A stretch of 43,040 nucleotides of DNA from a virus: positions 1 through 43,040 of IMG/VR virus record IMGVR_UViG_3300008217_000015. The stretch is one strand, 5' to 3'. Positions within the stretch are counted from its first letter, which is position 1. Each line of letters opens with the position of its first letter. The notes under the pieces were generated by a model. That model did not search any database. It worked only from the letters and a program-made list of their open reading frames with translations, and was not told the DNA's origin. Of the stretch, positions 17-43,040 are shown piece after piece. A program made the position numbers and the translations under genes.

Positions 17-2995
17 ATGCATATTGAATATATAACTCCATACGCAGCCCCTCAAATTTGGGGTGCTAAAGGCGGTTGTTTTCCTGCAGATACTTCAGTA
101 TTAACACCTTCTGGCAGTACACCTATCCAAGACTGTCAGATAGGAGACAAAGTTTTATGTTACACTCCGGATGGAGAGGTGATGTCTCGTCCCATTACTG
201 AGGTAGAAACACATGCGAAGCAAGATTTAATAGAGTTTGTTTTTGGAACAGCTAACTTAGTATTAACTCCGAATCATTGGGTATTAAAAGCATCAGGACA
301 GTACGATTATGCCTTTAACTTTGAGGTTGGGGATTACTTAGTTGATTTAAAAGGCGAATCTCAAAAGATTTTGTATATTAACTCTATTCCTAAACAAGTT
401 GTTTATATAATAACTGTTCAGGATTATCATACATTTTTTGCCGATGGTTTTCGAGTTCATAATAAAGGAGCAGGTAAATCAGGGGGTTCACCTGCGCCTG
501 CTCCTACTGAAGAGCCAAATAATTTATTTTCGACGGATATTGTTTTTGCTACTATCGCTCTAGGAGAAGGACCCATTTATAGAGTTAATCCTTTAGGGCC
601 TCAAGATATTGAAATTAACGAGGGAACTATTGATGATTTAATTAATTTGGATGGAGATGGGAAGGAAAATACGGATGTTTTTAAAACTATTACTCGTACT
701 GGAACTTTAACTCAGGTAGAAATGCCAGTTTTTGGGCAAAGAACCGTAATTCCACAACAATTGGCAAGTAGGGTTTTTTTAAGAAAGGGTAATGTAGAGG
801 GAGTTCCTAAATCGGAAGTTATACTTCAGAATACTAGTATTGATGATTACTCAGAATTAATTTTTACTTTTGGGATTCAGGCTCTTACCAGAGTAGATGA
901 GCAAGGAAATATTTTTAACAAAGATTTGAATATACAGATTGAAGTTTTTGATCGCACGGGAACTACTGTATTGGGAGAGAAAGTAGTACGTGAGTTTCAT
1001 AATAAAACAAATGTTCCTTTTCAGTTTCAAATTCAGTATCCTATTCCTAAAGCAAATCGTAGTAAGGCTGGTTATAAATTTACTATTAAAAAAATATCTA
1101 ACGATTCAGACTCTTCTCGTGTTCAAGATTCCATTAGTTTCCAGACATGGTTAGAAGTTAAGGATGAGGTTTCTGCTTATCCTCGAACGGCGCTAATCGG
1201 GTATTCTTTATTAGCTTTTAATGAGCACGTAGGAGGGGTACCGACTTTTACCAGTGTGGTAAAAGGTTTGTTAGTAAAAGTTCCTAGTAATTATAACCAA
1301 CCAATATTGTCTACTGGAGAGGTTGATTGGAGAGAGTTGGAGTTACCCGAGACAGGAGTTAATGGTTACACTACAAACGGGTATCGACTTCAAAGTTCAG
1401 GAACAGGTACTTTAAAAACTGATCTTAATCCTCAAATTTACAAAGGAGTGTGGGATGGTAGCTTCACTTTTTCTTGGACGCAAAATCCTGCTTGGATAAT
1501 TTACGACATCTTAACTAACAGTACTTATGGTCTAGGAATACCGGATGGTAATATTGACATATTTCAGTTTTATAAGGTAGCCCAATACTGTGACGGAGTT
1601 GATGCAGCAACAGGAAAATGGGCTGGGGTAGCTGGAATCTCTGATGGCACTTTTCGGCATAAACCTCAAGGTAAGTTTGGGACAGTTCGAGAAACTTTAA
1701 TAGGAATAAATGAAGGTATTAATATAAAAGAAAGACGTTTTATTTTAGACTTGTTATTAGCTGACCAGCAACAAGCTTTTGATTTAATAAATCAGATTTG
1801 TGGTACTATTCGAGCTATCATTATATATAGCGGAGGAAAATTATCTTTACAGATTGATATGCCTGATGAAATACCTATTATGATTTTTAATGAAAGCAAT
1901 ATGAAACCTGATTCAGTACAGATTAGTGGTATTAGTGAAAGTGAGATTATTACAGGATGCGATGTTAATTACATTAATGTAGCTAACCACTATAAAAGAG
2001 AAACGATTAGGGTTGATGATCCCACCTCGGTGGATACTCTTAACCAGATTGAAAATATTAAAAATTTGGATTTACCTGGAGTAACACGACGTAGTCAAGC
2101 AGTAAGATACGCTCAATATATGATTGCCGCGAGTAAGTTTGTAAGACGAAAGATTGGGTTTGAAACTGATACGTCAGCTTTATCTTTAGTACCAGGAGAC
2201 TTGATTGCAGTTCAGCAACGGTTGGCAGGAACTGCTTGGGGTTTTGGAGGGCGAGTAAGGGCAAATTCAGCTTTAAGAGGGTCGAGTAATACTCATACTG
2301 TTCAAACTTCCAATGTATTTTTAGAGCATTTTACTGCTCCGGCTATTACTTCCGCCGTATTTACGGCTAATACTTTTCCAGTAGGAATGCGGATTTTTAA
2401 TAATCGTAATGATGATATGAGATTATATATTGTTAGTAATAATCATTACGATATAACGAGTACTGGTACTAAAGCAGACGGAACGTCTAACGTAAGTGGG
2501 GGTTCAGATTCAGTTACGGTTAAGGCTTTGGAATATTATGATTTAAAGACTCGAACTTGGAATGTCAATTTTGCATGGACAGCTAATACCGTACCTGCTC
2601 GTGGAGATATGTGGAATTTAGGAGAGGTTAATCCTGACAATTTTTACCGTGACACTACAGATAAGTTGTTTAAAATTAGCGACGTTCAACGAGACGAGGA
2701 TGAGAAAGTTACAGTTACGGCAGCTGAGTATATTGCTAATGTTTATATTGACTCAGATACTGCTATTAATTATACCCCAGTTCGTTATGTAGATACTTAT
2801 AGTCCTCTGGTTGCGCCACCAGCTCCGCAATTTATATTAACACCTAATCCTCGACAGCTTCCAGACGGAGGAGTGGTAACTGATATTGATATTTTTGATA
2901 GTACGGATGTTACTAACTATCCTATTGCAATTAAGACTATTTACGAATATGCTGTACCAAGTGCAGTCTCTGACATTTTAACGGTGAATCCATAA
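17..2995 (+). CDS. Tail tip / host-specificity protein J homologue carrying an intein-like Hint domain
   Basis: 992 residues. The body resembles lambda protein J, the central tail-tip hub and host-recognition protein: an early ALGEGPIYRV segment and the J-like stretch around residues 475-530 (WDGSFTF, NPAWIIYDILTNSTYGLG, AQYCDG). A Hint domain occupies residues 21-149 and splits the Gly/Lys-rich N-terminal linker (GAKGG before, KGAGKSGGSPAPAP after); it is listed separately. AGGAG at 1-5 sits 11 bases before the ATG. The stop overlaps the next start as TAATG, so translation is probably coupled. Function is inferred from family resemblance. The protein should sit at the tail tip with the next three products. 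Confidence 0.85.
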   Translation: MHIEYITPYAAPQIWGAKGGCFPADTSVLTPSGSTPIQDCQIGDKVLCYTPDGEVMSRPITEVETHAKQDLIEFVFGTANLVLTPNHWVLKASGQYDYAFNFEVGDYLVDLKGESQKILYINSIPKQVVYIITVQDYHTFFADGFRVHNKGAGKSGGSPAPAPTEEPNNLFSTDIVFATIALGEGPIYRVNPLGPQDIEINEGTIDDLINLDGDGKENTDVFKTITRTGTLTQVEMPVFGQRTVIPQQLASRVFLRKGNVEGVPKSEVILQNTSIDDYSELIFTFGIQALTRVDEQGNIFNKDLNIQIEVFDRTGTTVLGEKVVREFHNKTNVPFQFQIQYPIPKANRSKAGYKFTIKKISNDSDSSRVQDSISFQTWLEVKDEVSAYPRTALIGYSLLAFNEHVGGVPTFTSVVKGLLVKVPSNYNQPILSTGEVDWRELELPETGVNGYTTNGYRLQSSGTGTLKTDLNPQIYKGVWDGSFTFSWTQNPAWIIYDILTNSTYGLGIPDGNIDIFQFYKVAQYCDGVDAATGKWAGVAGISDGTFRHKPQGKFGTVRETLIGINEGINIKERRFILDLLLADQQQAFDLINQICGTIRAIIIYSGGKLSLQIDMPDEIPIMIFNESNMKPDSVQISGISESEIITGCDVNYINVANHYKRETIRVDDPTSVDTLNQIENIKNLDLPGVTRRSQAVRYAQYMIAASKFVRRKIGFETDTSALSLVPGDLIAVQQRLAGTAWGFGGRVRANSALRGSSNTHTVQTSNVFLEHFTAPAITSAVFTANTFPVGMRIFNNRNDDMRLYIVSNNHYDITSTGTKADGTSNVSGGSDSVTVKALEYYDLKTRTWNVNFAWTANTVPARGDMWNLGEVNPDNFYRDTTDKLFKISDVQRDEDEKVTVTAAEYIANVYIDSDTAINYTPVRYVDTYSPLVAPPAPQFILTPNPRQLPDGGVVTDIDIFDSTDVTNYPIAIKTIYEYAVPSAVSDILTVNP
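77..463 (+). other. Hint (intein / bacterial intein-like) domain inside the tail tip gene
   Basis: Encodes residues 21-149 of the tail tip protein. Block A starts at Cys21 (CFPADTSVLTPSG) with IGD at 42-44. Block B has T84-P-N-H87. Block F is VYIITVQDYHTFFADG. Block G ends His148-Asn149. There is no homing endonuclease insert (129 residues). The residue after Asn149 is Lys150, not Cys, Ser or Thr, so canonical splicing lacks its second nucleophile. This matches bacterial intein-like (BIL) domains, some of which are reported to cleave or splice without a +1 nucleophile. Removal would join GAKGG to KGAGKSGG, restoring a continuous Gly/Lys linker. Confidence 0.85.
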
Positions 2996-10770: not shown

Positions 10771-11541
10771 ATGGGAATATCATCGAATCATTTTGCGTAT
10801 TTGTCTATGTTAGCTTACAAAGACGAAGATGAAATTAAAAAATACGTTGAAGAATCTGAATATACTTATACAGATTGGAAAGGTGATAATGCGGTAATTA
10901 AATACACTGATTATCAGGTATTTAACAATGACGGTGCTCAGGCATATGCTTTTTGGAATAAACAGGTGTATGTGATAGCTTTTAGAGGAACTGAGCCGAC
11001 ACAATTAAGTGATGTTTTTGCGGATATGAAAGTATGGAAAACTGAGTCTCAGGTTGATGGTAGAGTACATTATGGGTTTAAGAAAGAGTTAGATAAGATT
11101 TGGTCTGATATAAAAGAGTGTTGGCCTATTTTTAAAGATAGAAGACTGTATGTAACTGGGCACAGTCTTGGTGCCGCAATGGCTACTCTTGCAGCTTCTC
11201 GACTTAATAAAGGAACCCGTGTTCCAACGGTTTACACTTTTGGATGTCCCAGGGTAGGTAATAAAAAGTTTACAGAAAGTTGTACTTTTGAACATCATAG
11301 ATTTGTTAATAATAACGATGCTGTTACAAAGGTTCCTTTTTGGTTTTTAGGATTTCGTCATTCTGGAGATTTAAATTATATTAATTATTATGGTAATATT
11401 AGACCTTTAACTCCTTGGCAAAAGATTAAAGACCAGTTTAGAGGCAGAGTAAGAGCGTTAAGTAAGTTTCAGTTATTTGACGGTATTTTTGACCATAGCG
11501 TTACGCTTTATTATCAAAAGTTAGAAAGGATTTCTAAATAA
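10771..11541 (+). CDS. Class 3 lipase-like alpha/beta hydrolase
   Basis: 256 residues. G130-H-S132-L-G is the nucleophile elbow of lipase class 3. Asp183 (NNNDAVTKVP) and His242 (FDHSVTLY) complete a plausible Ser-Asp-His triad in the right order. The segment VYVIAFRGTEP is the oxyanion/beta-strand region typical of the family, and PRVGN follows the nucleophile as usual. No signal peptide is seen. AAGGA precedes the ATG. It heads a block with membrane proteins, nuclease and holin, so it could help break host lipid at lysis, or act on host lipids earlier. Substrate unknown. Confidence 0.85.
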   Translation: MGISSNHFAYLSMLAYKDEDEIKKYVEESEYTYTDWKGDNAVIKYTDYQVFNNDGAQAYAFWNKQVYVIAFRGTEPTQLSDVFADMKVWKTESQVDGRVHYGFKKELDKIWSDIKECWPIFKDRRLYVTGHSLGAAMATLAASRLNKGTRVPTVYTFGCPRVGNKKFTESCTFEHHRFVNNNDAVTKVPFWFLGFRHSGDLNYINYYGNIRPLTPWQKIKDQFRGRVRALSKFQLFDGIFDHSVTLYYQKLERISK

Positions 11542-26121: not shown

Positions 26122-26535
26122 CTAAGGTATTCTATAGCTACCCTTGATTACACGTTCTGCAAATAATGCTGCATTAATTGCGCCGTGTTTTCCTATCGAC
26201 ATACATGCAACAGGTACACCTTTAGGCATTTGTGATATGCTTAATAAACTATCTAATCCTAATAAGTCAGACTTCATTGGAACACCTATTACTGGTAAAG
26301 TCGTATATGCTGCAACTACTCCAGGTAGTGCAGCAGACATGCCGGCGGCTGCGATAATTACTTTCATTCCCTTGCTAATCGCACCAGTAGTCCATTCTCT
26401 TACTTTTTCCGGTGTTCTATGTGCAGACGCAACAATAGTCTCATTTGTAATATTTAATTCATCTAACTTATCTGAACAATGCGTCATCATTTCCAGATCA
26501 GACGCACTACCCATTATTATTCCAACTTCGCTCAT
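26122..26535 (-). CDS. purE: PurE, N5-carboxyaminoimidazole ribonucleotide mutase
   Basis: 137 residues. Class I PurE motifs: [10 protein letters not shown] at the N-terminus, [11 protein letters not shown] with the catalytic His region, [42 protein letters not shown] and a GAINAAL helix. It converts N5-CAIR to CAIR in purine synthesis. AAAGGG precedes the ATG. Slightly shorter than typical bacterial PurE (~160). With PurS and a phosphoribosyltransferase nearby it forms a purine-supply module borrowed from a host. Confidence 0.93.
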
Positions 26536-42855: not shown

Positions 42856-43040
42856 GGTGGGGCTATTGTGCCTCCTGTCAGCGGTAGCTGACACGTCGGT
42901 GGGGCTATTGTGTCTGCTGTCAGCGGTAGCTGACACGTCGGTGGGGTTATTGTGCCTCTTGTCAGCGGTAGCTGACACGTCGGTGGGGTTATTGTGCCTC
43001 TTGTCAGCGGTAGCTGACACGTCGGTGGGGTTATTGTGCC
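42856..43040. repeat. 42-bp tandem repeat array, each unit with a perfect hairpin
   Basis: Units at 42856-42897, 42898-42939, 42940-42981, 42982-43023 and a partial one at 43024-43040 cut by the window. Units 3 and 4 are identical; units 1 and 2 differ by a few bases in the first half. Each contains TGTCAGC-GGTA-GCTGACA (7-bp stem, GGTA loop) and a GGTGGGG start. GC is about 62% (26 of 42 in unit 1), far above its surroundings. No open frame of note. Likely an iteron-like origin, protein-binding array or genome-end element. Confidence 0.95.

Follow-up and report, generated by a model that had tools for sequence, protein, structure and literature searches.

The tail tip protein encoded at the start of a 43,040-nucleotide viral DNA (IMG/VR record IMGVR_UViG_3300008217_000015, positions 1 to 43,040; hereafter the window) carries an intein-like Hint domain near its N-terminus, and we think it probable, on balance, that this domain excises itself from the protein after translation and rejoins its flanks, as an A-type bacterial intein-like (BIL) or BUBL-like domain. 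The protein is lambda-J-like, and the case for excision with rejoining comes from the site of the domain in J, from the residues that it keeps there, and from a Lys that follows it in J and in many other phage tail proteins.

The Hint domain of the window J protein

In profile searches the 992-residue product matched phrog_31 ("central tail fiber J", 5e-99), Phage-tail_3 (2.1e-16) and FNIII-A_GpJ (6.5e-10), together with lambda_TipJ at an E-value of 1.4e-39, a match that nevertheless lies far under the full-length cut-off of that profile. Residues 21-149 match PT-HINT (PF07591; E 2.9e-8, 34.5 bits against a cut-off of 27.7) and NCBIfam intein_Cterm (17.0 bits, cut-off 15.6), with matches below their cut-offs to intein_Nterm and to Pfam Hint, Hint_2 and Intein_splicing. 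AlphaFold predicts the Hint core with a predicted local distance difference test score (pLDDT) above 90 and both flanks (residues 1-17 and 152-159) below 50, and the profiles, this model and a fold search agree on a Hint fold with blocks A, B, F and G. A first-pass annotation, made from the sequence alone, had placed a Hint at these residues with Cys21, TPNH, HN and Lys150, and direct reading, PF07591 and the AlphaFold model all bear this out. No ubiquitin-like domain was seen in the window J chain.

A precise insert in the N-tail of J

Viral contigs were scanned with a J-core alignment that is blind to the Hint, and the best 80 of 386 relatives were kept; among their J open reading frames (ORFs) the Hint is present in 48 and absent from 32. 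Hint-less proteins run uninterrupted through the site, as in loci L243 (..IPQISGAKGG-KGGGGG..) and L279 (..VPRIIGSKGG-KGGGG..), and a Hint-bearing relative, L105, reads ..VPYIVGAKGG[Hint]KGGGKGGG... The first-pass suggestion that the window flanks would form one continuous linker if spliced is therefore matched by natural sequences with nothing between the two halves. In non-redundant sets a P.[IV].G motif stands in the N-flank of 28/29 Hint-bearing and 13/13 Hint-less J proteins, and from this motif to the FSTD block there are 21-30 residues with the Hint removed, against 19-24 in its natural absence. Three of the 29 rows end in SN; their flanks were read separately, and they were excluded from the selection and co-divergence analyses below. 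By this alignment the Hint is a precise insert, placed at a single point of the conserved, Gly/Lys-rich tail at the N-terminus of J.

A scan of genomes with J, from which 80 of 523 matches were kept, led to 86 J ORFs, including those of four named phage records. The Hint is found in one of these 86, from a Chloroflexi metagenome-assembled genome. At the Hint site most lambda-type J proteins of prophages carry a tail that is rich in Gly and often contains Lys (for example LIIGAGGGGKGGGG, from Limnohabitans). A short peptide query with the J N-tail gave no matches.

Conservation and inheritance in J

All 48 Hint-bearing J proteins keep both Cys1 and the final Asn, which excludes a chance occurrence, given that they were selected blind to the Hint. 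Degeneration of Cys21 or Asn149 in homologues, which the first-pass annotation had said would speak against its reading, is thus absent wherever J carries the domain. The residue after the domain (+1) is Lys in 48/48, and in all 34 distinct domains among them. Of the distinct Gly tracts in Hint-less J, 5/11 have no Lys, so that the +1 Lys goes with the domain. The earlier statement that a +1 nucleophile is missing holds for Cys, Ser and Thr and needs amending for Lys, which is conserved in its own right and could serve as the acceptor. The domain ends in HN in 41/48 and in SN in 7/48; in the J-type Hints of L244, L263, L286 and their relatives Ser replaces the penultimate His (SN/KGGG, the slash marking the end of the domain), with Asn and the +1 Lys kept.

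The ratio of nonsynonymous to synonymous substitution rates (dN/dS), taken over 23 pairs with J identity of at least 80%, is 0.015-0.34 for the Hint and 0.03-0.15 for J, which indicates that the Hint is under purifying selection. Its divergence tracks that of J across 26 proteins (r 0.90, reached in 0/5000 permutations), and on this measure the Hint is co-inherited with J. A degenerate relic was ruled out by the retained residues and dN/dS. In a quickly built tree from 42 J cores, without bootstrap and unrooted, Hint presence is a single change (Shimodaira-Hasegawa-like approximate likelihood ratio test, SH-aLRT, 92) that may be either a gain or a loss.

Two other accounts of the domain can be set against these results. 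It could be a mini-intein, selfish or a relic, that a flexible linker tolerates and that is of no use beyond its own removal; its precise insertion into a linker of low complexity, for which empty alleles exist, suits such an element, as does a length of only 129 residues with no homing endonuclease region. We nevertheless judge this very improbable, as the single tree change and the co-inheritance with J give no sign of spread within the J clade, and the Lys rule described below extends across different hosts and architectures, including C-terminal domains that interrupt nothing. Alternatively, it could remain in the mature tail tip as an inactive domain with a structural or receptor-facing role. 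Accessory domains are a frequent gain of tail tip proteins, yet a purely structural role does not need the Cys1, block B His and final Asn that are kept, and we give it hardly any credence.

Hint domains in other phage tail proteins

The window Hint is one of a large family of phage tail Hints found in J, gpI, tape-measure-like and fibre proteins. A scan for VHNKGGG returned mostly Hint domains, in many proteins, among the matches listed, and over 410 scan loci we found 239 full-length Hints in 232 ORFs. In these ORFs the Hint is N-terminal in 112, C-terminal in 50 and internal in 46, runs off contig ends in 19, and is present in two or three copies in 5. Hints in gpI (L136, L508) have phrog_32 before the domain and phrog_4554 after it; another lies in a protein with weak tape-measure matches (L166), and two in DUF4815 proteins (L158, L170). 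With the window Hint as a tblastn query, 50,697 phage records gave one weak match, to a Ruminococcus phage. Four other Hint queries led for the most part to Vibrio phage records, whose annotations are DNA helicase, P-loop NTPase or hypothetical protein, but also to Ruminococcus and Mycobacterium phages, and one query matched a tail protein of Alcaligenes phage Afa-NA1, the one cultured phage with a tail Hint protein that came out of these searches.

The residue after Asn was read without bias in domains collected by three scans that used the N-terminal junction only; these scans and the VHNKGGG scan each had at least 120 matches, so that counts drawn from them describe samples. Among 311 N-junction candidates, 139 full-length domains were retained (89 had no match and 83 a partial one). 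The profile used for this reading was built from VHNKGGG-picked domains, and because its columns end at HN it favours HN-ended domains, though it is blind to +1 itself. The +1 residue is Lys in 59, Gly in 44, Ala in 8, Phe in 6, Ile and Ser in 4 each, Thr, Val and Met in 3 each, and Cys, Leu, Pro and Arg in 1 each, with one domain running off a contig end. Reduced to 64 non-redundant domains at about 75% string similarity, the sample has Lys within +1 to +6 in 53/64 and Arg in 12/64, and Cys, Ser or Thr at +1 in just 5/64; a stricter 60% similarity leaves Lys in 42/51. Helicase inteins of three Vibrio phages, read in the same way, gave HN/C, so that the method of reading does not account for how rarely Cys stands at +1.

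The Lys signature holds at different positions in the host protein. Where the Hint ends the protein, with 12 residues or fewer after Asn, Lys is present in 20/20 tails (control mean 6.1, maximum 14, over 20,000 draws of equal-length tails from other ORFs, on the same contigs where there were any, the ORFs being few, 0 to 19 per contig), and the 98 residues of these tails include 27 Lys against 3 Arg. Among internal Hints, neither N- nor C-terminal, Lys lies within +1 to +6 in 17/21 (control mean 4.7, maximum 13, 20,000 draws). The Afa-NA1 tail protein (L577) reads HN/MDDSGYETKRKY and then stops, its first Lys being at +9.

Several variants were seen alongside these counts. Hints that end otherwise different proteins read HN/K and stop (L227, L430, L445, L170, L158) or HN/KK and stop (L142, L138). 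In L070 and L106 Gly replaces Cys1 with the C-terminal junction kept (GFTAET...HN/KGGG). Tandem Hints in one protein occur in L078, L011, L553, L115, L062, L014 and L084, and many of the linkers between them start, after HN, with Lys and close with Gly-Gly or Ser ahead of the next Cys.

The phrog_32 part of gpI has been called ubiquitin-like, and the gpI Hint comes after its end (IDIVPILEGAGGGGGGG[Hint]GGGGKGGGG, where a Hint-less gpI has IDIIPIIEGAGGGGG-FFGAIF), although the structure model of a gpI-Hint protein is too poor to bear on that likeness (mean pLDDT 44). The papers cited by accession in this text are each drawn on in part; one of them, from 2006, describes a ubiquitin-like part of gpI before a Gly-rich linker and proposes that the JAB peptidase processes gpI at the Gly after that part (PMC1779556). 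Separately, a P.x.x.G[AS]-Gly motif lies at the end of the gpI N-domain in 52/54 and 20/20 gpI-like ORFs of the J and genome loci, against 4-7% of control windows; it resembles the N-terminal peptide of J, and in J as in gpI the Hint insertion is next to it. Five loci with a Hint in gpI (L480, L495, L517, L524, L539) also carry a Hint in a different ORF, near residue 690, which in L495 and L480 is preceded by SST or SSR and not by a Gly tract.

These settings also bear on a reaction in trans, in which the Gly20 thioester would be passed to a Lys of another tail protein and so cross-link the tip (J to J or J to gpI, for example), making the Hint a ligation device. BIL2 of Tetrahymena attaches its ubiquitin-like extein to other proteins (PMC8616854), the 20 C-terminal Hints are each followed only by a tail that bears Lys, and a Hint also follows the part of gpI called ubiquitin-like. 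Against this, the flanks of the J Hint read as one tail in Hint-less homologues, the +1 Lys is in cis and no partner was identified, and we consider transfer in trans decidedly improbable for the window protein.

Comparison with known systems

The nearest solved relative in sequence is Clostridium thermocellum BIL4 (2lwy; 1.1e-29 with the profile, 8.6e-8 with the window Hint alone), and the top fold match is BIL2 of BUBL1 from Tetrahymena thermophila (PDB 6Y75, 6TMM; Foldseek 1.1e-11; Z 20.5, root mean square deviation 1.8, 139 aligned residues, 27% identity). Both matches support the BIL-like identity first proposed from sequence. By fold alone BIL2 does not stand out, since BIL4 and several inteins score within 1-2 Z units of it.

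With BIL4 and A-type BILs in general the window domain shares the Hint blocks, the HN end and a +1 residue other than Cys, Ser or Thr. Type A BILs, which end in His-Asn and have no +1 nucleophile, can splice through attack of a freed amino group on the N-terminal thioester (PMC4031507). The setting described for BILs is a variable or hypervariable region of a bacterial protein that is not conserved (PMC7765530), a setting that is usual for them without defining them; as far as that account goes the window site differs, lying in a conserved Gly/Lys-rich J tail and followed by Lys. BIL2 resembles the window domain in the Gly-Gly that precedes residue 1 in its solved chains, as it does Cys21, and the phage gpI Hint, too, follows a part called ubiquitin-like. 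However, BIL2 has a ubiquitin-like domain on either side, in a ciliate protein, whereas the window Hint lies in a phage tail tip after a short N-flank. Splicing by BIL2 is reported to yield an isopeptide bond with the epsilon-amine of a lysine and to conjugate ubl4 to other proteins; the acceptor proposed for it is a Lys of the next domain (PMC8616854), as opposed to the +1 candidate of the window.

Class 1 mini-inteins (gp41-1, Mtu RecA, DnaB) are alike in fold (Z 19-20), Cys1, HN end and precise insertion with empty alleles, but require a +1 Cys, Ser or Thr where the window has Lys150; a classical intein was ruled out on this ground. PT-HINT scores above its cut-off, but its setting is a pretoxin and here the J body follows; with no toxin after the domain, toxin processing was likewise ruled out. 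The lambda tail set offers a further likeness, as the gpI ubiquitin-like part, JAB and NlpC/P60 belong to the same operon: upstream of J in L002, which is 98% identical, lie gpL, two NlpC/P60 ORFs, JAB and two gpI-like ORFs. The proposal for lambda gpI relies on the JAB peptidase, with no mention of a Hint in the part of that paper drawn on here (PMC1779556). Among the matches listed in searches of an open-access library, none described a Hint or BIL domain in a tail protein of a phage, which is weak evidence of novelty as most subscription papers lay outside that scope.

Proposed mechanism

We propose a model in which Cys21 would form a thioester with the acyl group of Gly20, the acyl group would pass to an amine lying just beyond Asn149, and cyclisation of Asn149 would free the domain. 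Mature J would have lost 129 residues, and its tail would read GAKGG-KGAGK without a break. We infer the occurrence of the reaction, the rejoining of the flanks, and the Lys side chain as acceptor (giving an isopeptide bond) in place of the new alpha-amine (a peptide bond). Rejoining is favoured by the empty sites in Hint-less J. A Lys acceptor is favoured by its retention across different hosts and positions and by the precedent of BIL2, and by this analogy Lys150 may be the acceptor. Extended to the family, the model would have phage tails use a large class of Hints in which the thioester passes to a Lys 1-6 residues past the domain, in place of a +1 Cys, Ser or Thr, and J, gpI, tape-measure-like and fibre proteins would thereby be spliced, or joined, through isopeptide bonds; we put this wider idea forward tentatively and hold it to be possible but doubtful.

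Several observations weigh against these proposals. Rejoining would do little for Hints at the extreme N-terminus (MC/C... in L009 and L027) or C-terminus, and in the class where Gly replaces Cys1 (L070, L106) a thioester is impossible. Lys is missing from +1 to +6 in 11/64 domains and is thus not universal; in the four full-length Hints of Ruminococcus phages (L006, L580) it lies within +6 in only 1/4, so that the other three argue against any universal rule. As Hint presence is one change on the J tree, the retained N-flank does not amount to many independent observations. Finally, cleavage dominates over splicing in known type A BILs (PMC4031507).

The last point leads to cleavage without rejoining, in which the domain would be cut at one or both ends, the N-flank lost or held non-covalently, and mature J would start at Lys150, the Hint acting as an N-terminal propeptide that removes itself and so sets the timing of tail tip assembly. 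The dominance of cleavage products in type A BILs is what this account would lead one to expect, and the extreme N-terminal Hints and the Cys1-to-Gly HN/K variants need a C-terminal cut only. Nevertheless, the N-flank motif is retained whether or not a Hint is present, which makes the N-flank a lasting part of J and favours rejoining over plain cleavage; Cys1, which C-terminal cleavage alone does not need, is invariant in J; and cleavage gives the Lys signature no role. We therefore regard cleavage alone as unlikely, albeit a serious contender. The first-pass annotation had left cleavage and splicing during tail assembly side by side, with cleavage as a possible maturation step; from the sequence evidence we prefer the second, excision with rejoining, and the first has become the less favoured.

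Features of the window

The coordinates of J and its Hint are collected in Table 1. The window starts 16 nucleotides ahead of J. Elsewhere in it are a class 3 lipase-like protein (10771-11541; PF01764, 1.7e-26), a class II tRNA-synthetase-like protein of just 292 residues, in a phage (13121-13999; PF00152, 5.1e-15), and a purE-like aminoimidazole ribonucleotide (AIR) carboxylase (26122-26535; PF00731, 6.1e-50), a host metabolic gene carried on a phage. A 42-base tandem repeat of 4.4 copies (42856-43040) runs into the end of the record and may have stopped assembly.

Table 1. Positions of J, its Hint domain and the flanking segments in the window
Feature	Position	Strand	Residues or product	Basis
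Lambda-J-like tail tip protein gene	17..2995	+	992 aa + stop	phrog_31, Phage-tail_3 and FNIII-A_GpJ matches
N-flank (N-extein)	17..76	+	Residues 1-20, ending GAKGG	Alignment with J homologues
P.[IV].G motif in N-flank	50..64	+	Residues 12-16	Motif count across J proteins
Hint (bacterial-intein-like) domain	77..463	+	Residues 21-149	Profile, sequence and fold matches
Cys1 of Hint, predicted thioester former	77..79	+	Cys21	48/48 Hint-bearing J
Block B TPNH	266..277	+	Residues 84-87	His87 invariant in 60 aligned domains
Block G	458..463	+	His148-Asn149	Asn in 48/48 Hint-bearing J
+1 residue, candidate acceptor	464..466	+	Lys150	Lys at +1 in 48/48 Hint-bearing J
C-flank (C-extein start)	464..511	+	Gly/Lys-rich KGAGKSGG tail, then J body	Alignment with Hint-less homologues

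Implications

If the domain is indeed removed, the mature tail tip of many environmental phages would differ from its encoded form, which would matter for the prediction of receptor binding and for virion proteomics. If true, the Lys rule would mark out a kind of protein splicing that can be put to the test, would offer compact, ATP-free ligation modules, and would link phage tail assembly, where gpI and JAB were given a processing role in the 2006 proposal, to intein chemistry. Lys-accepting tail Hints would then be a viral counterpart of the ubiquitin-dispensing BIL of Tetrahymena, sited at ubiquitin-tail-like Gly motifs beside the JAB peptidase of the phage.

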